From: Arion vulgaris
Taxonomy: Eukaryota; Mollusca; Gastropoda; Stylommatophora; Arionidae
DNA: 64,000 bases
Direction of reading: 5' to 3'
Assembly (NCBI GenBank): GCA_020796225.1
Contig: CM036759.1
Coordinates: 71,401,512-71,465,511 of the forward strand
The notes beneath the pieces were generated by a model. That model was given only the letters and a program-made list of their open reading frames with translations, made no database searches and was not told the DNA's origin. The position numbers and the translations under genes were made by a program. This document shows, piece by piece, positions 25,950 to 56,938 of this stretch. Numbering within the stretch: the first letter of the stretch is position 1; each line of letters opens with the position of its first letter.

Positions 25950-27723
25950 CCTCCAACTCGGCAAAGCAGCGAACGAGGCCTACAGGAAAAAGTTACTGGT
26001 TCGAACGCAAGTATTGGCCAGAGACGATTAAATATTACCCAATGGAATGCCGAAGGTATTCATCACAAAAAGCAAGCACTCGCAATAATACTTGCAGAAG
26101 ACGATCTTGACGTTGCGTACATACATGAGACACACCTAAATTCCCAACATAGATTCGAGATTAAAGGTTACCAAACCTTTAGAATAGACAGAAGGACACA
26201 AGGGTGGAGTCCTCACCCTAGTACGAAACGGAATTCCTGCGAAGCAAACGGAAGGAACCACAGGAAGTGCAGCGCACTAGAGATTGTAGGCGTCCTAATC
26301 ACTTGTAACGAAATGCAGATTCTTCTGTACAACCTATATTGCCCAAGTGACATCTCGCTGTCACTCGATGCAATGAATATCAATGATACAGTATGAATTG
26401 TCGTCTGTGATTCCAACAGTCACTCGGAACGATGGGGCTACCTCGAAACAAACAGCAGAGGCGTAGAAGTGGAAGACTGGGAGATAGAGAACAACCTGTT
26501 CCTCATCAATGCCCCAGACGATCCGCCAACCTTCTACTCGAGAATGTGGCATACGACGAGCACCCCAGACTTGGCCTTTGCAACAAGCGATTTATCCACA
26601 AAAACAGTCCGTACAGTGACCATATACTGGTCAACCTGCAAGTAAACCTCAATTTTGTACCCGAGCCCAAAATGTGATTGCCACGATGGAACTACAAGAA
26701 AGCAAATTGAAAACAGTATGGGGCACTTACTGATGCCAATGTTGAACGTATCAACATGCATGAAAAGAAAAACATGCGATCTGTGCAAGGAACTGTCACA
26801 AGCAATCCTGAAAACGGCATGGGGGACCATTCCTAGAGGCGCACGAAAGAATTACAAGCCATACTGGACAGCAGAGGTTCAGAAGCTTGAAAAAGACCTT
26901 AAGATGGCAAGGAGTGAGGCAGAACAGGCACAGTCAGTGGCGACCAATACTGCTTACAAGGAGGCAGCAGCTAAATACAGAAGGGAGGTAAAACGAGTGG
27001 CGCGACAGAGTTGGTTGCACGGGCAAACTCATGGAGCGTATGATGAACAAACGGCTATCTTGGCACTTAGACAGCAAAGGGCTTCTCATGTCACAACAGG
27101 GAGGCTTCCGAAGATAACGATCTACAGATCATGTAACCTGATCAGGAAATCGAGGATGGTTCCCAAGAAAAGAAACAGACCCTGGCAGTCTTGGTAGATA
27201 TGGAGAAGGCGTTCGACAGTCTGGAAGGAAGGTATAAGGCTGAAACTCCTCACCCCCGGGATAAAGGGAAGAATGTACAAGTGGCTTGATAGATACCTAG
27301 AGAACAGAACAGCAAGGGTTCAGGGGTACACAAGCATGAAGGCCACACTAGAGCAAGGAGTCCCAAGGAGGAGTGCTCTCACCAACCCTCTTTCTAATCT
27401 TTGTCAATGACATTGCAATATGCCTGCCAGAACGAGTACACTCTGCCATGTATGCCGATGACCTGGCAATATGGGCAAGGGAAGAGTCAATGCCCACAGC
27501 AACAAATCGACTGCAAGTTACGTTAAATAATCTGGAAGTGTGGTCAGAAAAGAATATGAACATAAATGCTTCAAAAACCACTTACACTGTATTCTCCCAG
27601 AACAACCAGGATTACAAGATAAAGCTTAAAGTCAATGGGCAGGAACTTCCAGAATGCAAGACCCCAACGTACCTAGGAGTCACACTCGATAGAAAACTGA
27701 CTTGGTGCCATCAAATTAAAAAT
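25950..27723 (+). pseudogene. RH1 element, EN and RT part (second layer of nest)
   Basis: This copy starts within the RH1 5' untranslated region (CCAACTCGGCAAAGCAGCGA; compare 51,095). EN begins near 26,030 (ITQWNAEGIHHKKQALAIIL), with a QETHL-type block near 26,125 (here IHETHL) and FYSRMWHTTSTPDLAFATSD near 26,530. A deletion in the linker near 27,012 removes several hundred bases. RT carries LVDMEKAFDS near 27,190, FLIFVNDIAI and the catalytic YADDLAIW (27,451), ending YLGVTLDRKLTW at 27,705. Frameshifts break it. The sequence quality is good, so it is the best reference for RH1. RH2 interrupts it at 27,723; it resumes at 32,012. Confidence 0.8.
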
Positions 27724-28563
27724 TGTGATCGTAGTCTAGCTTTTACGGAACACATAGCTCATGTGATAATGAAGGCGTGGAAAGGTTTGCTGGCGATGAG
27801 GGTAATGGCTGCGGCGGATTGTGAACAGCGCCATCTTTGTCTCTTATACCAGGGTCTGGTCTTTTCTGTGCTTGAGTATGCGCTGGCGATCCTGACTCTC
27901 AGTCATAGTCAGATAGAACGACTGGAAAGAATACAGAGCGAGGCTATGCGCATTATACTTGGGTGCACTAAAGACACGTCGTGCAGGGCGATGCGCTATC
28001 TCCTTGACTATCCTACTATGGAGTATAGAATACTGATGAGCCGTGCACGAGCATACCTTCGAGTCAATGCTGACACACAACATCCCTTGCACATGGAAAT
28101 AAAGAGACAAAAAGGAAATAAAGAGACAAAAAGGAAATAGGTTAAAAAGAGGAAATCTTGGATGGGTCAGGCCGAGGACTGTATTGAACAGGTGTGTACA
28201 CTTGAAGACATTGATCCCGGTGAAGAATGGATACCAGTGCCAACAGGAATCGCTACATCCTTTTCTGTATGCATCGAACTTGCTAAAGAATGCAGACAAC
28301 ACAACCCACTTGTCGTGGAGGCAGAGGTTCAGGCATTCATTTCTGAGAACGCATCTGCGCATGATGTAATCATTTATACGGATGGTTCGATGATTCGACA
28401 TGTGCGGAGCTCATGGGCTTTCACTGCTCAGGTCGGAGGTGATGTGAAGGAAGACAGTGGTGGTTTTGCCATGACTACGAGCAGTCTCACTATGGAAATC
28501 ATGGCGGTTACCAAGCGATGATTTGGCTAGAATCAGACTTTTATCCATGCATGTTTTCTCAGT
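27724..28563 (+). pseudogene. RH2 element, RT C-terminus and RNase H start (third layer)
   Basis: One frame runs nearly unbroken: EHIAHVIMKAWKGLLAMRVM, YQGLVFSVLEYALAILTLSH, RLERIQSEAMRIILGCTKDT and RARAYLRVNADTQHPLH. After a short AAAGGAAATAAAGAGACA duplication it continues in RNase H: DVIIYTDGSMIRHVRSSWAF and TTSSLTMEIMAV. It is 5' truncated in RT. Flanks TTAAAAAT at 27,716-27,723 and 32,012-32,019 form an 8-bp TSD in RH1. It is interrupted by a CR LINE at 28,564. Confidence 0.8.
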
Positions 28564-32862: not shown

Positions 32863-33591
32863 AAACTCCCAAAGAAAGTGACTGACACGAAGTGATTGCC
32901 ACAGGCAAATACTACCGAGCAGATGCAATAAAAGCTGCGGCCGAAATGATCCTATAGAGAATAGGTACCGCTCGCAACAAGGTCGTGATATTCATCGATG
33001 CTCTGTCATCACGGCACTCAAAAGTGTTGGCAAAACAGCTGAATGAGCTCAAAACGGCCCTCGCTGAACTAACGTGCTCACTCAAACACACCGTCATTCA
33101 GTGGATACCATCACACTGTAACGTAAGGGAAACAAGCAGCCGACAAACTAGCCAAAGAAGGCGGGCGACTACCTCAGACTGATCTCGAGATCAATTATGA
33201 GGAAGCCAAAACAACCACCGGCTCGCACTATAGAAATAAATGGACAAAAGACCATCCTCAGTATACCAACAGCAACGGATACTATGGTCTCTCTCGTAGT
33301 GAACAAGTTGCCATACTTCGCCTCCGTACCGGACACAAGAAGCTCCGAGCCCGCATGTTCCACAAATTTAAGATTGGCACAACTAGCCTGTGTCCCTGCA
33401 AAAAGGCGGACATGACGGCAGAACACGTTCTGCAAGACTGTCAACGTTTAGCAGGTATAAGAAAAAAAACATGGCCCCCAAAACACAGAGCTTCGCGAAA
33501 AGCTGTACGGAGGAACGTAGTCACTTAAAACCACGGTAAAATTCATGATAAAAGTTGGTCCATCAGTCTAGGCCGGAACGCAAGAGAGAGA
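32863..33591 (+). pseudogene. RH1 RNase H domain, C-terminal zinc-type tail and 3' end
   Basis: It continues RNase H with NKVVIFIDALSS (catalytic Asp), LKHTVIQWIPSHCNVR, then KLAKEGG-like text, YYGLSRSEQVA, LRLRTGHKKLRARMFHKFK, TSLCPCKKADMTAEHVLQDC (Cys/His cluster) and the 3' terminus ATTCATGATAAAAGTTGG ... GGAACGCAAGAGAGAGA. It includes the uninterrupted GGACAAAAGACCATCCTC site at 33,242, which is the empty site for the 5.0 kb chimeric insertion at 36,431. Confidence 0.8.
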
Positions 33592-34945: not shown

Positions 34946-36262
34946 GGGTCAAAAGGCTCATGAGGTCATGGTGGTAACATGAGCCAGGGTTAGCGAGGGC
35001 GCTACAAGACCCTGCCCCTAACCTCCACGGGTGACCCTGAAACAGACTCTGGTTCTGGTCTGGCTAAGAGGGCAGGGATCGGGAGAGGAAACTACTGGTA
35101 GTGGTAGCAGTGCAATTACGAAAATACGATAAAGATACATACAAATAAAATGCACAATTCTCCTGACCGATGTCCAAAAAGATATTGCCCAAGTCCCTGA
35201 ACGCAAAGATCCCTGAACGCAAAGATCCCTGAACGCAAAGAAACAGCAACGAACGACTCAGACATGGATGAGAGGTGCATCCAGTGACCAAACGTATGCC
35301 CACGTAGGGCGAAGCTCGAAGCCCTGAGGAGGGGCAAACATTGCCAGCCCGTCGGCAAGAATAAATAAGACAGGACCGTAGAATGAAAGTCTACCCTCGT
35401 GTTGGTGCGAGAGAAGATTGCAGCTGACCCCGCATTGGTAGCCTGGTGCAGATACATGTACTGGGCAAGGTTTGCAGAGCGCAAAAGAACAAGTTGCGTT
35501 TAGTGCATAACGAAACTACCCGCCCTGGGAAAACCGTGCAAGGTGCTGTGCGATTAAAATTAACATCCCGGAAGAACTGAGGTTGGTGATGCCTAACGGA
35601 ACTGCCAGCCTTGGGGCAACTGGGCAAGGTTCGATTGCAGTCGTAACTAACATCCCCGGAATAACTGGGGCGGGTGATGGCGGCGCGCGCAAAATCCTCA
35701 GTTACGCTTATAGTGCCCACTGAAACGACCCTCTACATTGCTTGTACTCGGCCCCATGCCAGTGCTTTGAGTAAAATGCAAATTGCCACGCACCGACAGC
35801 GTCTAGAAAAGGCTGAGAATGTTCCTTCCCGGATCAAACTCAAAATGTACGGTAAAGCAAGGCCGACAATGTACGGATCAAACAGGAAGCCCGGGTCCCG
35901 AACATTGGCGAAGGCCGATACTTTACACAGTGTTTTATACGAGTAAGACGCCGTCCGAGGACAAGCTGACAAGCCCGAAAAATATTTCTCAGTCAGAACG
36001 GGTAAAGCAGCGTAACTCACTGTCTTGGCGTAGATCACAAAGCCCAAATATACGGCAAAGTTGATCGAAAAGGCGTAGATCCGAAAGGATCGTACCTAGA
36101 AAGCTCACCTAGTAAATCAAAAGCTGGCTGAAACGGACGGCGGGCCTAGTCACCATGGGCGCACAATCGTCCCGGCGTAGATCACTCCGTTCTTGCCAGT
36201 GGACCAATTATACATCACAATAAGAATGATCAAATTGGCCGTGAAGAATGTTAGCAGAAGAA
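34946..36262 (+). mobile_element. NA element, full length, 13-bp TSD
   Basis: It is flanked by GAACTAGTGTATG at 34,933-34,945 and 36,263-36,275. The first base of the insert is the first G of the GGGTC stem. GGCTCATG and CATGAGCC form the second stem. It is almost identical to 29,958-31,258 apart from small indels and a local expansion of TCCCTGAACGCAAAGA to three units at 35,193-35,240. The 3' end is TTAGCAGAAGAA. It inserted in RH1 RNase H text. Confidence 0.85.
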
Positions 36263-36430
36263 GAACTAGTGTATGCACTTAAACGCACCGTCATTCAGTG
36301 GATCCCATCACACTGCAACATAAGCGGACATGAACACGCCAACAAACTAGCTAAAGAAGGCCATCGCGAGATCAGTTATGAAGAAGCCAGAACAACCATC
36401 GGCTGGCAATATAAAGACAAATGGACAAAA
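36263..36430 (+). pseudogene. RH1 RNase H fragment, second piece
   Basis: It continues the host copy: LKRTVIQWIPSHCNISGHEH, KLAKEGH, ISYEEARTTIGWQYKDKWTK. It stops at GGACAAAA (36,423-36,430), the left TSD of the chimeric insertion. Confidence 0.8.
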
Positions 36431-36868
36431 ATTGGGTTGTGGCTGCAAACTGTGCCTCCCGTTTTGAAAAAAAAGGGACGGCGAGCCAGAGCGGAGGGGT
36501 TCCCGTGTCGATCCAATTCGTGCATAGTCTTTAGGCTGCCGTGCCTCCCGTTTTTCCGGAAAACGAGGCTTCAGCGAAAAAGGGACGGGTAGCTCCTTTA
36601 AGACTTCCCCCGGGGTCTTATTGGTGGTTTTGTGTGTCCGTTTCGGAGTTTCTCGGTCGCCAGTCAGTCTAAAATTTTAACCCCGGGTGGTCCTTTAAAA
36701 AGGCCCGGCCCCAACAGCTAGCCCCAGGATAACATGGTGTCGTTTTTTGTTGCGGCCAAGTTTTTGGAAAAACTTGGGAAGCCCGTTTTTTCCTTAAATT
36801 TCCCGGGCTGGGATCTCTCTGCAAAAGGCGCTTCTCCCCCCCCGAGCATTTTCGGTCGGCTTCCGCAG
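36431..36868 (+). other. rDNA 5' external spacer (unit E1) at the start of the chimeric insertion
   Basis: It begins TTGGGTTGTGGCTGCAAAC, contains CCTCCCGTTTTG, the GGAGTTTCTCGGTCGC block, GTCCTTTAAAAAGGC and CATGGTGTCGTTTTTT, and runs straight into the 18S 5' end. The same unit precedes 18S 5' ends at 48,811-49,262 and 49,371-49,893. Position next to 18S identifies it as external transcribed spacer or promoter-proximal spacer. All three units start at the same internal point, which suggests a transcription start. Base-level errors are frequent. Confidence 0.7.
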
Positions 36869-36990
36869 CTATTTGGTTGATCCTCCCAGTAGTCATATCT
36901 TGTCTAAAAAGATTAAATGCATGTCTAAGTTCACACTTTTCACGGTGAAACCCGGAATGGCCATTAAATCAGTCGGGGTTCAAATAGATC
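36869..36990 (+). rRNA. 18S rRNA, first ~120 nt (transduced copy 1)
   Basis: TTGGTTGATCCTCCCAGTAG, TCATATCTTGTCT, ATGCATGTCTAAGTTCACAC, CACGGTGAAAC and CATTAAATCAGTCGGGGTTC are the universal 5' end of eukaryotic 18S, with small errors. It ends near AAATAGAT and is followed by the RH1 5' end rather than the rest of 18S. It is part of an insertion outside rDNA, so it cannot give a functional rRNA. Confidence 0.9.
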
Positions 36991-39900
36991 CCCGATCCGG
37001 GTCAAAGGCTCTTTTTTTCCGGCGGAAAATGACCCGGGTTAGAAGGGGCCAAGCCCTCCCCTCAAAACCCACCATGCGGTGAAACTGGAAAAAGACTTAT
37101 TTCCCGGTCTCAAGGGGGCGGGGATGGGGAGCCCGGAAAAGCAAAGGGGGGGCGAATCCTGGAAAATTTCAAAATCCCCGGGCCCAATTGTCCTCCAAAA
37201 GGCAGAAACAGCAGCGGCGGTTACCGTGGGATAGTGTGATCTTAAGGCAGGCGCATAAAAAAACCCCGAAAAAAACACATTTCTGGTCAAGTCCCGCGAT
37301 GTCCAACCAAAAGAACTTGAGATACAGAGTAAAACCCCTAAAACAAAATCGTGTCCTGAAAGAGACTAAACCCCTGAAAATACACACTTTTCCCGGGCCC
37401 AAAAGACTGCAAAAAAGCGAGCCCCAAAATTTAAAAGTAGTGAGCCCGCGACAAAATAGTGGTCACTGCAATGCGAAGACGGGGAAGTCCCTGAAAATAC
37501 ACACACTTTTCCCTGCCCAAAAGCCAAAAAAAACCTTGGCGTCCCTGAAACAAGCTCTGTTCTCTGCGGGGAACTGCCCCCTTTGGTGTCATGGTTGGTA
37601 CAAAAAGGGGGAAAACCGAAACAACCTGAGCAGGGGAACCAATGTGTTCAGAAAAACGACCGGTTGTTGGGAAGATGGCGCTATAAGCCGGGGGGGCGGT
37701 CATCTAAGGTAGCAGCCCTAAAAGAAAATGGCAACTACTGCCTTGTGAGTTTTGGCGGGGGAAGTGGGAATTGGGGAACCGAAAACGCTGGTTAAACGGA
37801 TCCGTCCGAAAGAAAAGCCCCCAGAGCTCAACGGCACTGAAAGTGTAACGTAGCTCCCCAGGGACGCTGCATGGACAAAATTTTATATGAATATGTTTAT
37901 TAATAACGAAAATCGATATGGTGCTAGCCTGAAGTCCCGGGCAGGGGAGGCGGGCCCCATGCCTCGAAGGGGCCGCTTTATCTCCGCGGCCCCGCCCCCC
38001 CAATTTCGGCCCGGGCAAAACGGGGAAACCCGGGTTAAAGCTACGGTTAAACGGTGATATTACCATAAAAATTAAAATCACCCAATGGAATGGAAGGTAC
38101 CCACCACAAAAGCAAACCAAAAAGACTTGAAAAAGCGATATGGCGTTTGCATACAAAAGCACCTAAATCCCAGACATAAGTTCGAGATAAAAGGTTACCA
38201 GCCCTTCCCAGAACAGACAGAAAAGGGGCACAAGGGTGGAGTCCTCACCCTAGTCAGAAATGGCATTCCAACCAAGCAGATGGAAGGAAAAAAGGGGGAA
38301 ACCCGGAGCAGTTGAGATCATAGGTGTTAAATTGTAAAAACCCGATCATTCTGTACAATCTTTACTGTCAAGTTCCCGCGCTGTCACCAAACAATGAATA
38401 TCAGTGAAACTCATGTATTGTGTCGGTGATTTCAACGCCGGGGAGATGGGGGTACTCAAACAAACAGTAGAGGAGTAGATGGAAAGACGGGAGATGAGAA
38501 CAATCTGTTCTCATAAACGCCCGGGCATCCATCAACTTTCTCTCAAACTGGCACACAACCCCCCTGACGGCCTTTTGCAACAAGCGATATGTCCACCAAA
38601 AAGTCTTGGTTACCCACCAACTAGGGATAGTGACCATAGACCAGTAAAATTCGAGACCTCTTTTCGTACCTGAGCCCAAAATGTGGTTGCCACGGTGGAA
38701 TAAAAAAGGAGCCAAATTGGAAAACAGTATGGAGCACTGACGATGAAAAGTTGACAATCAACATGCATGAAAAGAAAACCGCGACCGTGGCGGGGGAACT
38801 TTCAGGCAACCCTGAAGGCCGGGAAACCACCCCCAGAGGCGCAAAAAGGATTACAAGCCATACTGACGGAGTTCAGGTTAAAAGCCCTTTGAGAAGAAAA
38901 GGAGTGAGGCAGAGCAGGCACAGTCAGGGGGAGACAAATACGTCTACAAGGGGCAGCACAAAATACAAAAAGAGGTCAAACGAGGGGGCGAGACAGAGTT
39001 GGGGCAAAAAAAAAAGAAACCCTGAACCTCGATAGGGGCGGCCTAAAAGTGGAAGCTGGCCCAAAGGGTGGCATGAAAAAACCACAGACCACCTATAGTC
39101 CCGAAAAGACAAGAAGATTTCCAGGAAGAAAACATCCTGATGCAAAATATGCAAGTCAGCAGAGTAAGCATAGAAAGGAAAAAGTTGATGCCACCACGAG
39201 AAAAGCTGGGCTCTAAGGGCAGATATCACCTAAGGACATTCACCGTAACGGCTGGAAGAGGCTTTAGGGACCTGAAACCCCGAAAGTCGCCCGGGGAAAA
39301 ATGGGATCAAATGAGATGCAAAACTTGGGAAACAAAAAGGGGCTTACTGTCCGCTCAACATGTGGGAGAACAGGCATATACCCAAGAATGGAAAGAAGCA
39401 ATCATGGTACCCATCCCAAAACCAGGCAAAAAAAAAACTCGACCCAGGGTTACAGACCAATAAGCCTCCTAAGCTGCCCGGGGAAACTTATGGGCGCATG
39501 TGAACAAAAGCTTTTCCCCGGGACTTGGGAAAGAACTGCCGGGGAAACAAGGGGGTTTGGAGAAAAGATCCACAGAGGATCAAGAACCACATTGTCAGGG
39601 AAAAGAGGATGGTTTCCCAAAAAAACAATAACACTGGCGGGCTTGGTAGATATAGAAGGCATTTGACACAGTCTGGAAAAAGGTTGACTCAAACTCCCAC
39701 CTCGGGGTAAAAAGGGAAGAATGTACAATTGGTAGATAGATACCTAGAGAACAGAACAGCAAGGGTTCAGGTTCAGGGTCAAAAATATGAAGGGCCCCAC
39801 TGGGGAGTCCCCCCAAAGGGGGAGGCTCTCAGCCTCTTTTTAGTCTTTCAATGACTTTCAACATGCCTCCCAGAAACGAGTTCACTTGCCATGTATGCCG

Positions 39901-41429
39901 ACGACTTGGCAATATGGGGAGAAAGTCAATGCCCCCAGCAGAAAAAAACTGAAACTACGTTAAAAAAACCTTGAAGTGTGGTCAAAAGTGGAATAGAAAA
40001 TAAATCCTTAAAAACCACTTACACTGTTTCTCCCAGAATAACAAAGGTTACAAGATAAGCTTTAAAATCAATGGCAGAACCTTCAGAAAATAAAAACCCC
40101 CAAGTACCTAGGAGTCACCTCGACAGAAAGTATTGGTGCACCCAGATCGAATTCCCAAAAACGAGACATAGGCTAACAATGATGGAAATCGGTTCCATGG
40201 GATCAAACACCAGAATTCTCAAGACACTTTACTCTGGAGAGTGCGCCCCTCCCGATACGGTTGGGGCGTGGAGCAATGCATCAACAAGCAATTTGAAAAA
40301 TGGTAGATCAAAACCGGCCCTCGAATCACTGGAGCCAAAAGTCCCCCCATCAAGGCGAGGGGGGGAAACCCTCCGGCATCCAACCAAATGACCGAAGGGA
40401 CAAGAAAGTAGTAGTCGGAAAACTCAAACGGCCAAATCGCATCAATGCATGAAAGAATGTATGAATCCGGAAAATGGAGAAAAGAGATCTAACCGTTAGA
40501 ATCTCTAACGCACTGACCACAGACCATCCCGTCTGCCAAAAGCAAAAACCAATCCCGCTCGAAAGTGCCCCATGGAAAACAAAAATGCCAGCGATCAATC
40601 CCCGGCATAATGAAAAAAGGGGGTCAAACAAATCAAAAAAAACTGCAGCGAAAAGGGACATAGAATCAGAGTACCTGAAAATGAGTGGGCACTACACGGA
40701 CGGATCGGCAAAACGCAATAAGGTGGCGGGGGAGGGAAAAGGCTTTAAAAACTCAAAGAAAGTCACGGTCAAAAAACGTTTCAACTGGCAAAAACTCGAA
40801 TAACTACCGACTGAGGCAGAGGGAATCAAAGAGGCCGGGGAAAAGATCTTGGAAGAAAAAAAACACACACAACAAGGGCGGGTATTCCCCGATGCTCTAT
40901 CGGTCATCCCCCACTAAATCGCGGCAAAACTGAGATGAATGACTCAAAAGCCCCCCGCTGAATCGAGTTACTCAAGCACTGTCATCCCGTGGATACCCCA
41001 AATGCAACATTAGGGGCAAGCGGCCCACAAAACTAGCCAAAAAGGGGGGGCGATACCCCAGACTGATGCGGGGTCAGCTTGAAATCAAAAAAACCATCGG
41101 TTCCCTTGGGAAATGGGCAAAAAACCACCCGAGTAACAGACAGTGCGGATACATGGTCTCTCTCCAGTGAACAAGTTTCCATATTTCCCCCTCCTTGCCC
41201 CAACAAGCCAGAGCCCAATTTAAAATTTAAAAAGGCCCTGCCTGTGCCCATGCAATTGGGGGACATGCGGCAGAACACGCTTCAAAACTGTCAACGTTTT
41301 GGGGATACGAAAAGTCTGGCCACAACACACAGAGCTTGGGGTTGCGGAGGAACGGGTCCCTAAAAAAAACAGTAAAATTCATGATAGAAGTTGGTCCATC
41401 AGGCTAGGCCGGGAATACAAAGGAAGGAA
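36991..41429 (+). pseudogene. RH1 element, complete length, in chimeric insertion
   Basis: It starts with GGGTCAAAGGCTC (5' module) and a ~1.1 kb 5' untranslated region. EN begins near 38,075 and the RT YADD block is at 39,893. RNase H YTDGS is at 40,693, the KFK/LPVPMQLGD Cys-cluster remnant near 41,240, and the 3' terminus CATCAGGCTAGGCC plus an AAAGGAAGGAA tail at 41,429. Right TSD GGACAAAA is at 41,430-41,437. Length matches the copy in 18S. Dense indels and homopolymer changes break every frame. As the flanking host copy is clean, these look like consensus errors, so true coding capacity is unknown. Confidence 0.8.
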
Positions 41430-41765
41430 GGACAAAAGACCATCCTCAGTACAACAACAGCGATGGGTACTATGGTCTGTCTCGTAGTGAACAAGTTGCC
41501 ATACTCCGCCTCTGTACCGCCACAAGCTCGCTCCACATGTTTAACAAATTTAAAATTGGCACAACTAGCCTGTGCCCCTGCAAAAGGCGGACATGACGAC
41601 AGAGTATGTACTGCAAGATTGTCAACTGATAGCAGGTATAAGAAAAGAAACCTGGCCCCATAACAGAGCTTTCAGAAGCTGCATGGAGGAACGGAGTCCC
41701 TTAAAAACATGGTAAAATTCATGATAAAAGTTGGTTCATCAGTCTAGGCCGGATCATGTGCGCGC
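41430..41765 (+). pseudogene. RH1 RNase H C-terminus and 3' end, third piece of host copy
   Basis: It resumes after the chimeric insertion with KRPSSVQQQRWVLWSVS/ DGYYGLSRSEQVA text, LRLCTATSSLHMFNKFKIGT, CPC..ADMTTEYVLQDC and the terminus ATTCATGATAAAAGTTGG, CATCAGTCTAGGCC and GCGCGCGAGAGAGAAAG. Quality is clean here, in contrast to the insert just left of it. Confidence 0.8.
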
Positions 41766-41769
41766 GAGA

Positions 41770-42425
41770 GAGAAAGAGGGACAGAGAATGATTAAAATGG
41801 CTGATAAGAACGATTGAAAAGAAGGAAGTTGCAGGAAACTGATGGAGAGAACAGTAAACAAGAGACTGACATGGTACCTTGAAACTAATTCATTGCTCAA
41901 TCCTGCCCAGACAGACTAAACAGAAGCACAGAGGACCAACTGACTAACATCAAACAGGACATCGAAAACAACTTCCAGAAAGAAAAAAAAAGTAACAACC
42001 ATATTCCTTGACTTGTCCAGGGGGTCCAACATGGTATGGCCTAATGCTGAAAGTCCTACAAACAGTTTCCCACAACATGTTCACCTGGATCAGAAACCTC
42101 TCCCAACGATCAGCAAGAGTAAAATAGACAACCACCTCAGTAAGACGCAAAAAATGAAGGAAAGAGTCCCACAGGGCAGTGTGATAGCACAAACGCTATT
42201 TCTAATATGTATAAATGACATTACCAAATGCTACCCCCAGAAGGTCTCAAACAGCTTACATGCAGACAAATTTGCAACCTGGACAGCAGCAGAACACACC
42301 CAAAAAACATGCCATCTACTACAAAAAAACAGTGGCAAAATGGAGACTGAACAAAAGCTGGGGCCTCAAAATTAACCACAGCAACTGTTTTTCTTTCTCC
42401 CACACAAGAAAAAAGTATTCATAAA
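41770..42425 (+). pseudogene. JK element RT fragment
   Basis: Frames give KLMERTVNKRLTWYLET, ARVKIDNHLSKTQKMKERVP, QGSVIAQTLFLICINDITKC and NSLHADKFATWTAAEHTQKT (catalytic AD-D changed to ADKF), then GLKI. This is the jockey-type RT palm with the VPQG-S...LF...INDI signature. Loss of the second catalytic Asp and frameshifts make it inactive. Confidence 0.7.
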
Positions 42426-42760: not shown

Positions 42761-43075
42761 AATACGCTGTCTATAATGTATATGGATAGGAAGTGCCCAA
42801 AGACATATCCTGCATCTGTACTGACACCATCTCCCAAAAGAGTTGTCCCGAGGTAATATTTTAAAAGGTAAATTTGGGACAAGTATAAAAAAAAAAAGAT
42901 AAACTGCTAGGTGAAATAAGTAGTTTTCCCGGAACACCTGCTGTTAATTCAGGCGATGGTCATCCCACCCTTTGGCCTTCTGGCTGATTTTTGCGTGAGG
43001 ATCTTTTTACTGGTGTCTCTTACCATGCGGAAAATTTTCCCTTTCAGGGGTACTTGAAGTTTAGTCATTCAAGTG
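42761..43075 (+). repeat. Spacer with NC 3'-end block
   Basis: GCTGTTAATTCAGGCGATGG and CTGGCTGATTTTTGCGTG (42,951-43,000) match the NC terminus at 57,949-58,005 and 10,845-10,900. The rest shows nothing. Base quality starts to fail near 42,960. Confidence 0.4.
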
Positions 43076-46000
43076 GGGTAAAAGGGCCATTCACGGGAAA
43101 ATGAGCCAGGGGGGTTAGGGGGCGCTAACCAAGACCCTGCCTTAAACCACCACGCGGTGAAACGGGGAAACAGACTTGGTTCGGTCTGGCTAAAGGGGGC
43201 GGGGATGGGGGAACCCTGAAAACAAAGCAGGGGGAAAACCCGGAAAATTCACATCTCCTGGCCAATTGCCCTCGAAATGGGCCCAGAAACAGCGCGCAAG
43301 TTACCTGTGGGGATAGTGTGAGCTTGGGGCCCCCGGCATAAAGGAAACCCCTGAAAAAAAACAAAATTTCCGGGTGAAGTCCCAAAGCGATGTCCATACT
43401 AGAAAGAACTGTGAGATAGGGGTAAAAAACGCCTAAAAACAAAATCGTGGTCCTCCGAAAACTGGAAATCTCTGAAAATAAAAATTTCCCGGGCCCAAAG
43501 ACCAAAAAATAGCGGCTCCAAAAGTCGAAACAGTAGTGAGTCGGGGGAAAAAGTGGTCACTGCAATGAGGACGGGAAGTCCCTAAAATACAAAAATTTCC
43601 TGCCCAAAAGACCCAAAAAAAAACGCTTGGCGCCCATGAAACATAGCCTGTTCTCGGAACCCCCCTGCCTTGTGGTGCATGGTTGGGAAACCAAAGGCTA
43701 GCGGAGCAAACCGTAAAAAAAACCTACAGTGCAACCAAGGGTTTCAAAACGCCCGGTTCAAAGATGGCGCCCTAAGCCCAGGGCAGGTCATCTAAGGGTA
43801 GCACCCCTGAAAGAAAATGGCAACTCACTGCCTTGTATTTTTGGCTGGGACATCAAGGCAAAGGGGAAAACCCGTGCTTGGGGCGGATCGCCCAAAAAGA
43901 TAAGCACCAGAGCTAGGGCCCGAAAGTGGTTGCCCCCATGCTGTGCAGGGAAAAATTTTATCAGAATATGTTTATTAATAAAATAATGGTTAGCCGAAAG
44001 CCCCGCCGGGGGGAGGGGGGGGCCCCCATGCCTCAAGGGGGCCCCTTTATCTGCGGTCCCCCCCCCAACCGGGCACAGCAGACGGTAACCGGGTTAAAGC
44101 TACGGGTTAAGGGGAAAGAAAAACCATAAAATTAAATATCACCCAAGGGAAACGGAATATCCACCAAAAGAAGCAAAACTGTGACTTCAAAGAACAAAAG
44201 GCGGGAAACAAAAAGCACCTAAACCCCAGACATAAGTTGAATAAAAGGTTACAGCCCTTTCAGAACAGACAGAGAAGGGACAGGGGGGATCTCACCTAGT
44301 CAAAAAGGCATTAACAAAGATGGAAGGAAAAAAAGGGAAACCCCCCGGGCAGTTAAATCTGGTTTAAATTTTTGTAAAAACACACAGATCATTCTTACAA
44401 TTTTTACTGTAAGTTACCCCCGCTGTCATAAACAATGAATATCGTGAGAACTCATGTATTGGGGTTTGGGTTTTAACACCCCTGGAGATGGGGTACTCAA
44501 ACAAAAAGTAGAGGAGTAGGGTGGGGCGGGGGATCAAAACAATCTGTTCCCCATAACCTCCAGCGACCATCAACTTTTTACTAAACGTGGGCCCCAAGAG
44601 TACCCCTACGCCTTTGCAACAAACGATATATCCACCAAGTAGTCCTAGGTTTTCCCCCCAACTGGGGGTAGTGACCATGACCAGTCAAATTTAAGTAGCC
44701 TCAATTTGACCGGCCCAAAGTGGGTTTCCAGGGGAACATAAAGAATTGGGAAAAAGTATGGAGCACGACTGAGCAAATGTTTCCCAACATCAAAAAAACG
44801 TAGAAGTGGGGAACTGTGAAGAACCTGAAAACGGGACGGGGAAAACCTCCCCAGAGGCGCCCAAAAAGGGTTAAAAAATCTGGGCACAGAGGGTTTAGAA
44901 GGAAAAAAACCGAGAAGACAAGGAGTAGGCAGAGCAGGCACAGTGTGGGGACAAATACTGTCACAAGGGGCAGCCCAAAAAACAGAAGAGAGGTCAAACG
45001 GGGCGAGACAGAGTTGGTCAAAACAACCTCCTGAACCCCATGGGCGGCCATAAACTGTGGGCTGGCCAAAGGGTGGCATGAAAACACCAAAACCACATAG
45101 TCCAACAAGACAAGAAGATGGCTTCGGGGAGGAAGCAGCAAACATCCATAACAAATGGAAGTCAGAGATAACATAGCAAAGGAAAAAGTTGATGCCACCC
45201 CCCAGAAAAGCCGGGGCCCCCAAGGGAGATATCCCCCGGAACATTCACCCTGGGGCTGGAAGAGGGTTTAAGGGGCCTGAAACCCAGAAAGTCGCCGGAA
45301 AGATGGGATCAAAAGATGAAAAAATTGGGGAAAAAGAGAAAGGTGTCTCTGTCCGTTTCAACATGTCGTGGAGAACAGGCATGGACCGCAAGAATGGAAA
45401 AAAGCAAACATGGTACCCATCCTAAAAACCCGGCAAAAAAATCGACCCCGCAGTTACAGACCAAAAATCCTAAGCTGGGCAAACTTATGGGCGAGGTGAA
45501 CAAACCATCCCGGCACTTGGGAAAACAAAGGGCTGCTTATGGCCCAAAAAGGCGGTTTTGGAGAAAAGATCCCCAGAGGATCAAGTAACCTACATTGTCC
45601 CGGAAATCGAGGATGGTTTCCAAAAAAAGAAACAGACACTGGGGTCTTGGGAGATATGGAGAAGGCATTTGACACAGTCTGGAAAGAAGGATTAGGCTCA
45701 AACTCCCCACCTGGGGAAAAGGGAAGAATGAAATTGGTAGATAGATACCTAAAAACAGAACAGCAAGGGTTCAGGTTCAGGGGACAAAAAATGAAGGCCA
45801 CACTGGGGCAGGAGTCCCCCAAAGGGGGAGTGCTCCGACTCTCTTTTTAGTCTTCGTCAATGACATTGCAACAGCCTCCCCGAACAGTTCACTCCCATGT
45901 ATGCCAGACTTGGCAATATGGGCGAGAGAAGAGTAATCCAACAGAAAATGACTGCAAACACGTTTAAAAACCTGGGCAGAAAGTGGAATATGAAAATAAA

Positions 46001-46845
46001 TCCTTCAAGACCACTTACACTGTGTTTTCCCCGAAAAAAAGGTTCAAGATAACGCTTAAAATCAATGGGCAGAACCTTCCGTAAAACCCCAACGTCCAGG
46101 AGTCACCTCGACAGAAAGCTGACTTGGTGCACCCAATAGAATCTCGGCAAAACGAGCATAGGCTAACAATGATGCTAAAATGGGTTCCCCTGGGGTCAAA
46201 CACCAAATTCTCAAGACACTTTACTCGGGAGGTCGACCGGTCCCGGGACGGATGGCAGCTGGGCAATGCTAAAAAACAACGCAAAAATAGGGAGCAGTCA
46301 AAACGGGGCCACGATTATCACTGGGCCAAAAATCCCGCCCATCAAGGCGTGGGGGGACCATCACAGGCATCCAACCCAAAGACTGACGAGGGACAAAAAA
46401 TGTAACTTGGGGAAAAATCAAAGCTCAAATGGGATCCCTGCATGAAAGAAAGTTTAAACCGGGAAAATGGGGAATACGAGTCTAACCCCTTAGAATCTCA
46501 CACGACGAAACCCCGTCCCCTTTCCCAAAAACAGCCAAACCAATCCCGGGAACGAAAGTGCCCGCCAGGAAAACAAAAAAGCCAGAACTAAGGAATCAAT
46601 CCCGGGATAATGAGCAAAAGGGGTCAAACAAATCGCAAAAAATCAAAAAAGAGCACAAGAATCGAGTACCCCGAAAATGAGGGAAGCCGTCACAGACGGA
46701 TCGGGAAAAGCAATGGATGGCGGAGGAGGGAAAAGTGCTTAAAATCTCAAAGAAAGTCACGGCAAAAACGGTGCAACTGGCAAATACCGAATAACTACCG
46801 AGCTGAGGCAGAGGAATCAAAGGGCCCAAAATTTTACCCCCCCCA
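43076..46845 (+). pseudogene. RH1 element, 3' truncated
   Basis: The 5' module is visible (GGTAAAAGGGCC, AAAATGAGCC, GGTTAGGGGGCGCTAACC near 43,075-43,130), then the long 5' untranslated region with CAAAGGCTAGCGGAGC (43,693). EN begins near 44,140, RT has an MYAR-LAIWA remnant of YADD near 45,898, and RNase H (VTDGS near 46,692) is cut inside the domain at about 46,845. No 18S or spacer precedes this copy. Errors are as dense as in the rDNA. Confidence 0.65.
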
Positions 46846-48707
46846 TTTACAGCCCAAAAAAAAACAAACTCGTCGTCCCCAACCGGGTGGTGTCGTCGTC
46901 GTCGTCTTCTTCTTAGTCCTCGGCGGAGACGTTGTCCTCGGCGGAGACGTTGTCCTCGGTTTGTCGTCCTCGGGGGGTCGTCCTCTCGTCCGTCTCGTCC
47001 TTCAGAAACCGACCGCGCAGGTTCGACTCCCCCCCGAGCAAACAAATAAACAGCATGGTCAAAAGTTGGAATGGGAAAAATGGCTCGGTGACCCACGGTT
47101 TGTGTTGGTTGATGGACAAACTCTTTTCTATTATTTAAAACATTTTTCGTTTTCAAAAAAAGAAAAGTGTACAGAAAAAAGAAATAATTTCACAAGCCCC
47201 TGAAACATTTTATATATATATTTTTTTTCTATCTCCCTAAATCGTATATTTTAAATACATCTTACGGCCAGCGCGCTCAATCGACCACCTACCCCAAAAG
47301 TGTACCCAGAAGCAAGCCCGTCAGCATAAAAGTATACAAAAGATCTTTTTTTTTCCTTTGCAAAAAGATACAAAAGAAGACAATTTTTTTTTTTTTTTTT
47401 TTTTTTAAAATTATTTAAAATTTTTAAAGGTCTTATTATAAATATTTGAATTTCGTACCTGTACAATTTGCTGACTTTAAGTTTTAACCACAATATCAAA
47501 TTTCTATTTGGCGAAATCTAGAATAACAGTTAGATTATTGCCCCCGCAAAAATGATTAACACTACCTTAATAACTACTATCAGCTAAGGGCTGCGATCAA
47601 ACCCCCCTCTCCCAATTAATATTTTTTTCAATGTATGTACCATGTTTGCTCATGCCCAAAAGTGTAACGATCGCATTTTTTTACTGTTACGATTTCTCCC
47701 CCCTGGGTCGTGGTATGGTAAGGCGGGTGGGGCGGTGAAATTTGGGAAAATAGAAACAAACAAACCAATATAGGCACAACTGGGCTACAACTTATTCTTT
47801 TCTTCTTGAGTTGCTGATTGTGTTTGCGTGAGATTGAACAAAATTTAGGATCATAACTTTAATTATAATTTTTTTAAAGTATAAATTATACCAACCATTA
47901 GAAATCATAAAAAAAAGGCCGGGCGGAAAACTTTTTTGGTTCAAGGGGGAAACAAAGGTTGTAGCAGCAGAAGAAGAAGTATACAAAAAAAACATTTTTT
48001 ATTTAGTAGAGTAGAGGGTCAGTGTGTATTGTTGCTTTGTTCGTCAATCCGTGGGGTTTTCATTGTTCTCTCAATAGACACCTAACCACGTGGTCGCCAG
48101 CAAAACGAAAAAATAATTTACGTAGGTACATTCAATGCGTTGGTGTGTTGTTGTTTTCTTTTTCCAACACAGGCGACGCGATGTCTGTGTTTACATTTTA
48201 AACTAACCTGCACCCTGGTTTTTAACCCACGGGGTTACCCGTGGTGAGCACGCTTGTTAGTTTAGAAATGAAAAACCGGCCACCGCCGTGTTGAAAAACA
48301 AACCAAAACATTGATTTTCTTATAAATTCCCCTTCTTCTTCTTCCTCTTCTTCTTCCCTTTTTTCTTTTTTTTCTTCTTCTTCTTTTCTTCTTCTTTCAA
48401 CTTTCTTTTGAAAAATTTTTGGTTGTGTTTTCGTGAAATGTAACACAAATTTCTGAATATCGTCTGAACTTGAACTTTAATTTTTTTATTAAAAACACAA
48501 AAAGGTTTGGATTTCAGGTTGCCAGGCATTGCATTTACTTACGTATGGACGTTTTTTAAATTTTTTTTTAAGCAGATTAAACGACAGTGTCATTAGCTTT
48601 GGTCACAAAAAACCCCAAATGTTTAATTAAAAAAATGCCCGGGGCTTGTTTTCATTTATCAAATATAATATAATCCCTATTCTATGAAAATGACGGTATT
48701 CTGAGGC
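46846..48707. other. AT-rich segment upstream of the 18S units
   Basis: It opens with a TCG/TCT microsatellite (46,880-46,915) and two tandem GGCGGAGACGTTGTCCTC units (46,922-46,958). From 47,100 it is AT-rich with a T run at 47,383-47,405 and a CTT-rich tract at 48,329-48,400. No recognised gene. Its position just before an 18S 5' end (48,708) would fit rDNA intergenic spacer, but it does not resemble the spacer units before the other 18S starts. Frames here are low-complexity. Confidence 0.4.
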
Positions 48708-48810
48708 TATCTGGTTGACCCTTTAGCATAGCTTGTTAAAAAGATTAACCATCATGTCTAAAAAGCACACTGTTCAGGGAAACCCCAGTGCTTTAAACAG
48801 GGAGGTTAAA
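48708..48810 (+). rRNA. 18S rRNA 5' end, unit 1 of 3
   Basis: TATCTGGTTGACC, AGCATAGCTTGTT, ATCATGTCTAA, CACACTGTTCAGGGAAACCC, TTTAAACAGGGAGGTT. This is the 18S 5' end with many errors, ending at the point where RH1 or spacer units join in the other copies. Confidence 0.8.
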
Positions 48811-49262
48811 AGAGAAGAATTGGGTTTGTGGTCGCAAACTGGCCTCCCCGTTTTGAAAAAAACACCACCAGGGCGGCGCGGTTATTCGATAACCAATTGG
48901 TGTGTTCTAACGGCGCGCGTGCCTTGCTTTCACCAACGGGGCTCCCAGGAAAAAAGGGACAAGGTAGCGTTGTTATTAAAAGACTGCTGCCGCCCGCGCT
49001 CTTATTTTTTTTTTCCCCTTTCCCTTTTTTCTCCTTATCCCCCTCTAAAATTTTTTAAAAGTGGGTGGTTTCCCTTTAAAAGGCCCGGCTCTCGCAACGG
49101 TTGTGGGTCCGCAGGATAACTGGTGTCGTTTTTTTTTTTTGGCAGCGAGTCTTCCCGGCAAAACTGTGGGAAGCGGGCTGGTCTTTCCTTAATTTCGATT
49201 TTGGGGGACGGGGATGTTAAAAAGGTTCTCCCCTCCCCCCGAGCATTGTCGCCGGTCCGTAT
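48811..49262 (+). repeat. rDNA 5' spacer unit E2
   Basis: It starts AATTGGGTTTGTGGTCGCAA and has CCTCCCCGTTTTG, GCGGTTATTCGATAACCAAT, TTAAAAGGCCCGGC and the GAGCATTGTCG end. It is homologous to E1 and E3 over its whole length and joins 18S text at both sides. Confidence 0.75.
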
Positions 49263-49370
49263 AATTTTGGGTTGACCTCCGTAGTATGCTTTCCAAATTA
49301 ACCTGCTTCAATTTCACACGTCCACGGTAAACCCGGGAAAAAGGCTCATTAAATCAGCGAGGTTCAATAA
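49263..49370 (+). rRNA. 18S rRNA 5' end, unit 2 of 3
   Basis: TTTGGGTTGACCTCCGTAGT ... GCTCATTAAATCAGCGAGGT ... TCAATAATA. It is followed by spacer unit E3 instead of the rest of 18S. Confidence 0.85.
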
Positions 49371-49893
49371 TACCGACCATCTGGGTTGTGCGTCTGCAAA
49401 CGGCCTCCCCGTTTTGAAAATAACCGGACGGGCAGCCAGTCGCGAACGCTTTCCCCCAGTGTCGATAACCAATTGCGTGCATAGTTCTAACGGCTGCGCG
49501 TGCCCCCTCGTTTTTTCACGCGAAGGGGGTCCCAGCGAAAAGGGACAAGGTAGGTTGTTTTAAAGACTCTTTTGCTCGCCGCGCGGGTCTTTTTGGTGTG
49601 TGTGTGTCCGTAATCGGAGTTTCTCGGTCGCGGTGTGATGCATCAGTCTAAAATTTTAAACGCTCGACGGTGGCCTTTAAAAAGGCCCCGGCTCTCGCAA
49701 GAGCTTGTGGGCCCCGGGTAGTAACATGGTGTCTTTTTTTGCTTGGCGAGGCGCGAGTTTTGCCGGCAAACCAAAAGCGAGCGCTCGGTCTTTTCCCGCT
49801 TAAATTTCGCTTTTTCCCCGGGACGTCGGGATCCGCTCTGCACGGGCGCTGTCTCCCTACCCCAGCATTGTGGGCCCGGTCTCGTCCATGACA
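49371..49893 (+). repeat. rDNA 5' spacer unit E3
   Basis: The best preserved spacer unit: CTGGGTTGTGCGTCTGCAAA, GGAGTTTCTCGGTCGCGGTG, GGCCTTTAAAAAGGCCCCGG (a 10-bp inverted core), GTAACATGGTGTCTTTTTTT and GGGACGTCGGGATCCGCTCT, ending directly before 18S. The run of 523 bp gives the true length of the spacer carried. Confidence 0.8.
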
Positions 49894-50008
49894 GCATCTG
49901 GTTGTCTGCCAGTAGTCATATGCTTGTCTCAAAGATTGCCATGCATGCAATTCACATTCCCCGGTGAACCCGAATGGCTCATTAAATCAGTCGAGGTTCA
50001 ATAGATAT
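49894..50008 (+). rRNA. 18S rRNA 5' end, unit 3 of 3, joined to RH1
   Basis: ATCTGGTTGTCTGCCAGTAG, TCATATGCTTGTCTCAAAGA, AATGGCTCATTAAATCAGTC and GAGGTTCAATAGAT. The rest of this 18S continues at 54,572 after the RH1 insertion. AGAT occurs at both junctions. Confidence 0.9.
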
Positions 50009-53000
50009 TGAACCAAAAGGCTCATGTTTCACGGCAAAAATGAGCCGGGGTTTGGAAGGGCGCGCAAACCAAGACCCTGCCTCTAAATCACCACGCGGTG
50101 ACCCTAAAAAAAGACAAAAGGTTGGGGTCTGAAAAAAGGGGGGGGGGATCGGGAGACCGTAAAAGAAAAGAGGGGCCGAAAATCCCGGGAGAATCCACAC
50201 GTCTCTTGGCCGATTGTCCCCCGAAATGGGACGAACAGCAGCGTGCAAAGTTATCTGTGATGACAGTGTGAGCTTAGAGACGCAACACATAAAAGGAAAT
50301 CCCTGAAAATAACCCATCCCCTGGTCGAAGTCCCAAAATGTATGCCCAAACTCAGAAAAAACCCTTTGGATGCAGGTACGAACCTTCGCAAACAAAATCG
50401 TGGTCACTGAAACTAGAGACGGGAATCCCTGAAAATACACACATTTCCTGCCCAAAGCCCAAAAATACGCGGCTAAAAAACTACGAAACAGTAAGAAAGT
50501 GAGTCCGCCCCCAAAAACGTGGTTGCAATGCAGAAGACTGGAAGCCCCTGAAAATCCCCACACATTTCCTGAAAAGCCCGAAAAAAGTCTTCAAAGCGTC
50601 CCGAAACATAGCTCTGTTTTTCCGAGGAACCCGCTGCCTTGTGGTGTCAGGGTTTGGGGTACAATCAAAGGTGCGGAGCAAACCGTAAACAAACCTGAAC
50701 GAGTGACGAACCAATGTGTTCAGAAAAACGACCGGTTCGGTGGGAAGATGGCGCCATAACCCCGGGGGGGCAGGTCATCTAAGGGTAGCAGCCCTGAAAG
50801 AAAATGGCAACTCATTGCCTTGTGAGTTTGGCGGGGACAGTCGAAGGCTAACGGAGAGCGAACCGTATACAAACGCTGGTTGAAAACGGATACACGTCCG
50901 AAAGATAAGCACCTGAGCTCAAAACGGCACTGAAAGTGTAACGTAGCTACCCATGCTGACGCTGCATGGACTAAATTTTATCATGAATATGTTTTTTAAT
51001 AATGAAATTTGATATGGTGCTACGCCGAAAGCCCCGCCGGCGGACAGTCCCGGGCCCCATGCCTCAAGGGCCGTTTTATTCCGACGGTCCCCGCCCTCAA
51101 CTCGGCACAGCAGCGAACGAGGTAACCGGGTTAAAGTACTGGTGCGATCGGGCAGTATTGACCAAAGAAATTAAATATCACCCAATGGAATGCGGAAGGT
51201 ATCCACCCCAAAAGAAGCACTCCCAAAAAACTTGCAGAAGCGATATAATTGCGTGCATACAAGAAACACCAATCCCGACACAAGTTCGAATCAAAAAGGG
51301 TTTCCAGACCTTCAGAACAGACAGAGAAGGACAAAGGGGGGTCCTCACCCCAGTCAGAAATGGCATTCCAACCAAGCAGTGGAAGGAACAAAGGAAACCC
51401 CGGGGCAGTTGAGATCATGGGTTTAAATTCGGGAAAAAAAACAGATCATTCTGTACAATCTTTACTGTCCAAGTTACCGCCGCTGTACTCGAAACAAAAT
51501 ATCAGTGAGAACTCATGAGGGGCGGGGATTTCAACAGCCCTGGGGAGATGGGGTACTGAAACAAAAGTAGAGGAGTTATGGAAGACGGGAGATCGAGAAA
51601 ATCGTTCCTATCAACGCTCCAAGATCCAAACTTTTACTGAGACGTGGCAACAACGAGTACCCCCGATCTGGCCTTTGCCCAAACGATATATCCACCAAAG
51701 TAGTCCCAGGTTACCCCCCAACTAGGATGTGACCAAAACCTGTCAAATTGCAAGTGACCCCAATTTTGTACCGGCCCAAAAAGTGGTTGCCCGGTGGAAT
51801 ATAAAAGAGAATTGGAAAAGTATGGAGATGATGATGCAAATGTTGAACGAATCAACATGCGACAAGAAAAACGTGCGAATCGTGGCAAGGGAACGTCAAA
51901 AATCCTAAAACGGCAGGGGAAAACCCTCCCCAGAGGCGCACGAAGGATTAAAGCCATACTGGGCAAGGGGGTTCAGAAGCTTTAAAAAAACCTTGAGAAG
52001 ACAAAGGGGTGAGGCAGAGCATGCACAGTCAGTGGAGACAAACACTGTCTACAAGGCGGCAACCAAAATACAGAAGAGAGGGAAAACGGCGGGGAGACAG
52101 AGTTGGTCAAAACAACCCGAATCCCCGAACCCCGATAGGGACGGCCATAAACTGGGGTGGCCAAAGGGTGAGCATGAAAACACAGCAGACCACCATATCC
52201 TCGAACAAAAAAAAGATGGCCGGGGGAAGCAGCAAACATCCTTAACAAAACCAAGTCGCAGAGTAAGAACAAAAGGAAAAATTGATGCCACCAAGAAAAG
52301 CTCGGCTCTCAAGGAGCCGAGAAAAAAGGAAAAGTCACCTAACGGACACATTCACCAGAACGAGCTGGAAGAGGCTTTAAAGGGGCCTGAAACCAGAAAG
52401 TCGCCCGGAAAGATGGGATCACCAATGGGATGCAAAAAACCCGGGGAAACAGAGCAAAAGGGCGCTCTACTGGCCGTTCTCAACATGTCGGGGGAAAAAA
52501 GGCATGTACCGCAAGAATGGAAAGAAGCAATCATGGTGCCCATCCCAAAAACCCGGCAAAAATAAACTTGACCCAGCGAGTTACAGACCAAAGCCCAAGC
52601 GACGGGCAAACTTATGGGCGCATGGTGAACAAACGCTTATCCTGGCCGGACAAAGGGGCTTATGGCACAACAAGGCGTTTTAGTCGATCCCCAAAGGGTC
52701 AAGAACCACATTGTCAGGGAAAGAGGACGGTTTCCAAAAAAAAACAGAACTGGCGGTCTTGGTAGATATGGAGAAGGCTTTTTACACAGTCGGAAAAAAG
52801 GGAAAAGGGAAAAATGCTACCCTCCGGGGAAAAGGGGAAAAATGTACAATTGGCTCGATAAAACCTAGAACAGAACAGCAAGGGTTCAGGTTCAGGGGGG
52901 ACAAAAGTATGAAGGCCACACTGGAGCAAGGGGGTCCCCCCGGGGGGGTCTCACCGACACTCTTTTTAGTCTTCGTCAAACATTTGCAACATGCCTCCCG

Positions 53001-56259: not shown

Positions 56260-56784
56260 TGGGTTCCCGGCAAAGCTAAAAGCACACCAAGTGCGCCGGG
56301 AAAAAAAATGTAGGCAAAAACGGTAAACTGAAGGAAAGAAACGTCGGACGGGCCCGCCCGCCGCCCCCCCGTTGCCCGCTACTGTTTTCGGGCCCTGACA
56401 GTCCTAGATACGATCCACGGTGACGGCTCGACCTTTTTTGTGCTCCCCGGGGTCGTGGTTCAAAGAGCGCTGCGGGATTGCCGGCCCGGCGGGCCCGCCC
56501 TCAGGCATGAGCGGTGCCCCCCCGTTTTTTGGGTTTTTGTCTGACTTTGGCCGCCGCCAAAGGGGAAGGTCGTTGAGGCCGGGCGTTTTTTTGCTCTTGA
56601 AATACCCGGAAAAAACTTTCCCGCGAGCAAAGGGGGGGGTGTTCAAGACCTTCCCCCTCACCCTTTCTGTCCGTCGCCCAATTTTCCATATTATTTCCCA
56701 AAAAATTTGTTAGGGAATTTTGTTCTTTTTTCCCCCCCCAAAAAAGGGGGAGGGGGAAAAACAAAAATATAAATCAAGCAAATG
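56260..56784 (+). other. ITS1
   Basis: GC-rich spacer between the 18S 3' end and 5.8S, 0.52 kb, with C and G runs. Frames across it are incidental. Confidence 0.8.
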
Positions 56785-56938
56785 ATAATTTTTGTGCGGT
56801 GGATCCCCGGGCTTGGCGTCGATAAAGGGCGCACCCAGCTGCGTGAATTAAGGGGAATTGCAGAACACATTGCATCGACATTTTGAACGCATATGGCGGC
56901 CCGGGTCCATCCGGGGCCCTCTGGGGGTGGGCTGTCTA
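56785..56938 (+). rRNA. 5.8S rRNA
   Basis: GCGGTGGATC, GGCGTCGATAAAGGGCGC, AGCTGCGTGAATTAAGG, AATTGCAGAACACATT, CATCGACATTTTGAACGCAT and GGCCCGGGTCCATCC are the 5.8S signature blocks, with a few errors. Ends are approximate. Confidence 0.9.

Follow-up and report, generated by a model that had tools for sequence, protein, structure and literature searches.

Background

Non-LTR retrotransposons that reside in rRNA genes include R7 of mosquitoes, an EN-type LINE of the R1 clade found in 18S, and the R2 lineages, which encode a restriction-like endonuclease. L1 does not live in rDNA; in the mouse it begins with tandem promoter monomers, that is, with a variable number of 5' units before its ORFs. 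The element considered here, termed R (RH1 in the first-pass annotation of the same DNA), is likened to R7 by description rather than by sequence, both being 18S-resident and, as far as can be judged for R, EN-type LINEs. It is like mouse L1 in its variable 5' units and unlike it in that the mouse monomers are not host rDNA.

The closest precedent is, in our judgement, melanogaster-type R1 outside rDNA, full-length copies of which carry 7-28 bp of upstream 28S sequence at the 5' end (PMC2718515). Like R, R1 of Drosophila is an rDNA-resident non-LTR element with ectopic copies that bear upstream rRNA-gene sequence, and it is associated with target-primed reverse transcription (TPRT); unlike R, it targets 28S, and its ectopic copies carry the 7-28 bp of 28S only, with neither spacer nor gene 5' end (PMC2718515). 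R8 of Hydra, which also inserts into 18S, and R9 of rotifers, which occupies another 28S site, are likewise non-LTR elements in rRNA genes (PMC5035012); they are R2 lineages, whereas the relatives of R instead have an N-terminal endonuclease (EN) and an RNase H (5 of the 5 that were scanned). Chimeras in which a LINE bears an rRNA segment at its 5' end, as the insert described below does, are known for L1 and 28S rRNA (n=18, median 269 nt, mostly in sense orientation for 28S), and the same source describes U6/L1 chimeras as well as 5S chimeras, many of which are reported with duplications; unlike the case of R, the segment is there proposed to have been joined by ligation or template switching (PMC13174262). 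Finally, in Drosophila ambigua an R2 carries a snU12 extension (PMC3414825). It resembles the insert in that an rDNA element is preceded by sequence from a foreign RNA, and differs from it in lying inside 28S and in that the extension is described as the product of a template jump to an unrelated RNA (PMC3414825). The portions of the open-access literature that were available describe no element with an rRNA leader and the 5' end of 18S. Nevertheless, the earlier statement that nothing comparable is known was too strong, given R1 with 7-28 bp of 28S (PMC2718515) and the L1/28S chimeras (PMC13174262).

Here a 64-kb stretch of Arion vulgaris DNA (the window) is analysed, which holds a eukaryotic 18S and 5.8S rRNA gene and many LINE-like and other repeats. 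Within it, one ectopic unit composed of rDNA spacer, the start of 18S and R was found, and it is compared below with a copy of R that resides in 18S.

Results

Anatomy of the insert

The insert (36,431-41,429, about 5.0 kb; its parts, duplication copies and flanks, the paralogous site, copies B and C of R and the rDNA parts named below lie on the + strand) begins with a spacer part of ~440 nt (36,431-36,868), the start of which, as placed by alignment (36,424-36,433), coincides with the starts of two spacers in the rDNA part of the window, u1 (48,812-48,818) and u2 (49,379-49,382). The spacer part is followed by 18S nt 1 to ~125 (36,869-36,990; Rfam SSU 29.6 bits, E 5e-6, below the gathering score of 50) and then by copy A of R (36,991-41,429), a non-LTR element whose EN and RNase H are predicted from its relatives and which is collinear with the 18S-resident copy C. 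The insert aligns collinearly with 49,382-54,579 (74.5% over 5,429 columns), so that copies A and C correspond across the whole spacer-18S-R unit. This collinearity, together with the sub-gathering SSU match, bears out the composition given by the first-pass annotation: rDNA spacer, 18S start and R element.

The insertion site

The insert splits an RNase H reading frame, whose two halves form its flanks. To the left, clean sequence at 36,245-36,430 encodes, by open frame and alignment, the RNase H part of a divergent relative of R; to the right, clean sequence at 41,438-41,774 aligns to the remaining part of the same RNase H and to the tail. The earlier view that the insert lies inside an unrelated RNase H of the same family is thereby half retained: the frame is indeed interrupted, but the flank is a divergent relative of the same LINE.

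An 8-bp target-site duplication, GGACAAAA, read directly from the sequence, is flush with both ends of the insert (left copy 36,423-36,430; right copy 41,430-41,437). When the flanks are joined (36,300-36,430 plus 41,438-41,600) and aligned to 33,050-33,450, the junction is ungapped against the paralogue at 33,242, with gaps elsewhere in the alignment, and an uninterrupted paralogous site is thus found at 33,235-33,270. The word itself is not unique, occurring in the 64 kb seven times on the + strand and once on the - strand; its significance lies in its being flush with either end of the insert and occurring once in the paralogue, not in its rarity. The bounding of the insert by GGACAAAA, with a matching empty site in a paralogue, accordingly stands as first proposed, as do the two flush 8-bp copies; the word 'clean', which had been applied to the duplication, is unwarranted for an insert so rich in errors.

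The two ends of the insert differ in sharpness. At the left, homology to both resident spacers stops at 36,424-36,433 in 6 of 6 comparisons made with three strict scoring schemes (two looser alignments overran this end into the flank, and the stricter schemes were adopted for it), and the left flank is no more similar to the text ahead of the resident spacers than random places are (scores 3 and 1; null 95%, 4). At the right, the insert stays homologous to copy C as far as 41,415-41,434, a resolution of ~20 nt, near the transition from R to 18S in copy C; scores for extension beyond the last common word (4.0, 2.5 and 0.0) are at chance level (null 95%, 4.0). On its downstream side the ectopic site bears a weak resemblance to the 18S target, 11 of 18 positions being alike; of 6,350 clean windows, 1.8% do as well.

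In sum, upstream sequence joined to R as it is in copy C, flanked by a duplication and placed at a new site, constitutes a 5' transduction as read from unpolished sequence.

The copy of R resident in 18S

From 48,706 onwards the window contains, in order, a first 18S(1-125) fragment, spacer u1, a second such fragment, spacer u2, a third fragment, copy C of R, the remainder of 18S, ITS1 and 5.8S. The first fragment (nt 1 to ~125, at 48,706-48,818) was recognized by alignment to the third and by self-BLAST, and the second (49,259-49,381) by alignment to the third and to the insert; among the three, Rfam matched the third (49,893-50,014; SSU 42.2 bits, E 2.5e-9, below the gathering score), which lies immediately ahead of copy C, and gave no match of their own to the other two. 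Both spacers match that of the insert, u1 (48,819-49,258) at E 1.7e-31 and u2 (49,382-49,892) at E 5.7e-47. Copy C (50,015-54,571) was delimited by alignments and includes a reverse transcriptase (RT) piece at 52,684-53,196 that matches PF00078; it is followed by the 18S remainder (54,572-56,259; Rfam SSU 720.6 bits over 54,560-56,259) and, beyond ITS1, by 5.8S (56,788-56,930; Rfam 64.2 bits). R thus resides in an rRNA gene, copy C lying in 18S after nt ~125. Residence in 18S is as the first-pass annotation had it. The first ~125 nt of 18S stand before copy C, and the 18S remainder, ITS1 and 5.8S after it. The spacer-18S unit, however, occurs twice in tandem ahead of the resident element, not once.

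The second and third 18S fragments and the fragment joined to copy A all stop at ...GAGGTTCAATA(G)AT or a near form, after which the second continues into spacer and the third and that of copy A continue into R; the end of the first is noisier and is compatible with the common stop. Each resident spacer is preceded by 18S text that ends near the insertion position of R. That this position is a fixed site is suggested by the matching fragment ends, with one resident copy seen. The length of a duplication at the 18S site is suggestive (summed p ~0.05; single p 0.75, 0.10, 0.75 and 0.03), two of the four junctions being no better than background. The GC content of the spacers (51-56%) is close to that of ITS1 (54%), as would be expected for transcribed spacer. 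A hairpin at 49,669-49,687 on the minus strand, within a spacer, resembles the histone 3' stem-loop at E 0.05; this is the level of chance, and the candidate was rejected.

The stretch ahead of the first 18S fragment

The 500 nt ahead of the first fragment, which starts at 18S nt 1 (~48,706), are AT-rich (33% GC) and form part of a noisy, AT-rich stretch (46,830-48,706, 37% GC) that adjoins 18S nt 1 and is either native leader or intergenic spacer (IGS), or a bad join. Its likeness to spacer is limited to a 33-nt block (48,273-48,305 against offset 18-49 of u1; E 0.034), which lies 435 nt before the first fragment, its counterpart lying 425 nt before the second. The best scores of the AT-rich stretch against the spacers of copy A, u1 and u2 were 14, 20 and 15, and of 300 shuffles 125, 11 and 32, respectively, scored at least as high; the u1 score at the collinear place was reached in 5 of 1,500 shuffles, a comparison made post hoc. 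For the spacer of copy A the best match falls at the same place and scores no higher than chance; for u2 it falls 63 nt off the equal-distance place. The match of the 33-nt block, being post hoc, is suggestive, and the weights given to the readings below were left unchanged by it. The block may be what is conserved at the start of a native leader that has otherwise diverged, which would favour read-through, or it may be due to chance. If the AT-rich stretch is itself the native leader and is unrelated to the spacer, then the spacer may by now be inherited with the element and not be the leader of today; if instead two pieces were wrongly joined here, as is suspected at 46,826 and 57,060, the stretch is uninformative. 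A search of 46,800-47,300 for the 3' end of LSU gave no match up to E 10. At 57,060, shortly after 5.8S, the rDNA ends against clean, apparently unrelated DNA, and at the ends of this block (~43,080-57,060; block 2) no duplication longer than 7 bp was present.

Identity of R

R appears to be a non-LTR LINE, its RT being detected directly and its EN and RNase H being predicted from full-length relatives. In a Pfam scan of 10 pieces of the window, RT (PF00078) was found in two, namely the piece of copy C (52,684-53,196, E 2.3e-7) and a clean relative at 27,352-28,140 (E 4e-11), and no EN or RNase H domain was found in any of the 10 at E 0.1. A joined query gave 254 matches, 120 of which were listed and 5 of which were domain-scanned; all 5 of these full-length relatives carry PF03372 or PF14529 together with PF00075. 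Proteins of the snails Littorina saxatilis and Batillaria attramentaria are among the matches listed. The RT piece of copy C is 66% identical to an Arion vulgaris protein over 51% of the query, and the clean relative is 84% identical to the same protein over 90 residues. Judged from the N-terminal EN and C-terminal RNase H of the relatives, and from one of them (P0004) that matches solved L1 ORF2 at E 2.8e-39 as against E 1.4e-17 for R2, membership of R in the R2 clade (R2, R8, R9) is unlikely.

Wider searches were made among viral and GTDB contigs. In viral contigs, one protein gave no pattern match and there were otherwise 200 pattern matches, 0 of which were confirmed by alignment. In GTDB contigs, 8 of 101 pattern matches were confirmed (25-37% identical), all in bacterial records and 5 of the 8 from mussel symbionts; these 8 contigs gave no Rfam match at the gathering score and are therefore uninformative on the target.

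A further copy of R, copy B (43,080-46,826, by alignment), follows a SINE-like repeat, has neither 18S nor spacer and is missing its 3' end. Judged by eye on the alignment, it starts at most ~10 nt from R's own 5' end. Bearing neither spacer nor 18S, it shows that the long 5' end need not accompany R on insertion. The SINE-like repeat has clean relatives at 57,941-58,091 and, on the minus strand, at 1,980-2,127. In the 5' region of R a CTGAAAATACACA motif (at most 2 mismatches) recurs at 37,374 and 37,491, at 43,241, 43,351 and 43,472, and at 50,429 and 50,548; its spacing of ~110-120 bp perhaps marks a degenerate repeat in ORF1 or the 5' UTR.

Quality of the sequence

Both the insert and ~43,080-57,060 have the appearance of long-read sequence that was left uncorrected and used where high-copy DNA stayed unresolved. 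In the 38 bins of 500 bases covering 36,501-41,500 and 43,001-57,000, homopolymer runs of at least 4 make up 12-30% of the sequence (median 20%), as against 0-16% (median 8%) in the other 90 bins. In a two-state model 36,457-41,149 is assigned to the noisy state, as are eight stretches between 43,111 and 56,767; the last ~280 bp of the insert come out as clean, as do parts of block 2, for example 49,458-49,957, which contains most of spacer u2. Over 4,150 columns, private differences number 523 (12.6%) in copy A, 560 (13.5%) in copy B and 598 (14.4%) in copy C, and all three copies differ from one another in a further 195. The longest open frames of A, B and C are 209, 131 and 218 aa, compared with 1,243-1,332 aa for the proteins of the ten best relatives among the 254 matches. 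A majority consensus of the three copies regained no long frame (167 aa) and was still homopolymer-rich (0.168), which implies that the errors are partly systematic and that three copies are too few; this outcome is neither for nor against the mechanism considered below. The unit boundaries and their order, the duplication, the empty site and the residence of copy C in 18S are all observed in sequence of this unpolished kind.

Discussion

How the insert may have arisen

We consider it moderately probable, the sequence being unpolished, that the insert is a real retrotransposition, by TPRT, of one RNA comprising spacer, 18S(1-~125) and R. R would then be a LINE living in the 18S gene, ~125 nt from the 5' end of that gene, and its RNA would start at a fixed point, the start of the spacer, and run through 18S into R. 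Copied back into the 18S target, such an RNA would place a new spacer-18S(1-125)-R unit after 18S(1-125), and each cycle of re-insertion into 18S would add one unit, giving the tandem units ahead of copy C; copied elsewhere by target-primed reverse transcription, the same RNA would give the chimera with its 8-bp duplication. The coincidence of the insert start with the spacer starts, together with 18S text that ends near the R site, is predicted by an RNA that begins at the spacer start and is not predicted by a random mis-join. We infer, further, that the spacer is, or once was, the rRNA 5' leader with its Pol I start and that the spacer-18S unit would now form the 5' end of the element, where it probably acts as R's promoter. 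The carried spacer may be acquired anew by Pol I read-through in every cycle, or it may belong to a 5' unit that is inherited. The original proposal, that an R RNA with spacer and the 18S 5' end was reverse transcribed and integrated, is accordingly sustained in its general form by the anatomy expected of one RNA (the common 5' end, the 18S stop at R, the 3' end of R, the duplication and the empty site). Its simplest read-through form fares less well, given that the AT-rich 500 nt before the first 18S fragment are like spacer only in the 33-nt block and that copy B has neither spacer nor 18S. It is tentatively suggested, as something that may well not hold, that R has taken over the transcription start of the host rRNA, so that its RNA begins in the rRNA leader and carries that leader and the 18S 5' end. 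On that reading one leader-18S promoter unit would be gained with every insertion into 18S, a ratchet giving rise to tandem promoters, and every insertion at another site would carry the rRNA promoter and the start of 18S to a new locus.

What must chiefly be set against retrotransposition of a single RNA is the assembly itself: the gap between the two RNase H halves may have been filled by an uncorrected long read, or by a repeat-graph piece, from the rDNA array. That the noise is confined mostly to the insert and ~43-57 kb agrees with this, as do the nature of the flanks, which are relatives of R and could recruit noisy R reads, the odd joins in block 2 at 46,826 and 57,060, and the resolution of the right end to ~20 nt. 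Yet a read recruited from the array would carry on the RNase H text rather than run from the first nucleotide of the spacer to near the end of R; a mis-filled gap would need chance breaks near both unit ends; and neither the flush 8-bp duplication nor the continuous empty site is predicted. Nor is the coincidence of the noise edge with the insertion edge telling by itself: high-copy repeats presumably end polished contigs at their boundaries, so that polished sequence would stop at the true insertion boundaries in any case. Altogether an artefact seems unlikely, if still to be reckoned with.

Two further routes would accept the insert as real and dispense with the single RNA. Synthesis of R cDNA might have moved, by template jump or RNA ligation, onto a separate fragment of pre-rRNA, as exemplified by the L1 chimeras whose 28S rRNA segments are mostly sense (n=18; PMC13174262) and by an R2 5' extension of 156 bp that matches snU12 (PMC3414825); but in both the insert and copy C the 18S text stops at the insertion position of R, as expected of a co-transcript but not of a jump, and we regard this route as improbable. 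Alternatively, unequal crossing-over in the rDNA spacer, where subrepeats are commonly found, might have made the tandem units and a DNA-level transfer the ectopic copy; this leaves the unit ends near R's position, the 8-bp duplication and the common unit start unexplained, and is slightly more improbable still. Even when the template jump and the DNA-level routes are taken together, their share of the probability is small.

Implications

If real, the insert is a 5' transduction by an rDNA-resident LINE, which is accompanied by striking tandem leader-18S units at the home site. Were retrotransposition of a single RNA to hold true, an rDNA-resident retrotransposon could keep its promoter on leaving the rDNA; there would be a route to tandem promoter units before a LINE, one per insertion cycle; rRNA gene starts could be seeded outside nucleolar arrays; and the start site and the carry-over of rRNA leader in R-element templates would become directly testable. 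Were the insert instead an assembly artefact, it would serve as a warning that unpolished long-read fills can mimic exotic biology.

Other features of the window

The 64-kb window contains no tRNAs. A tandem array at 12,260-13,362 consists of 14 copies of a 79-bp unit with 97% matches.
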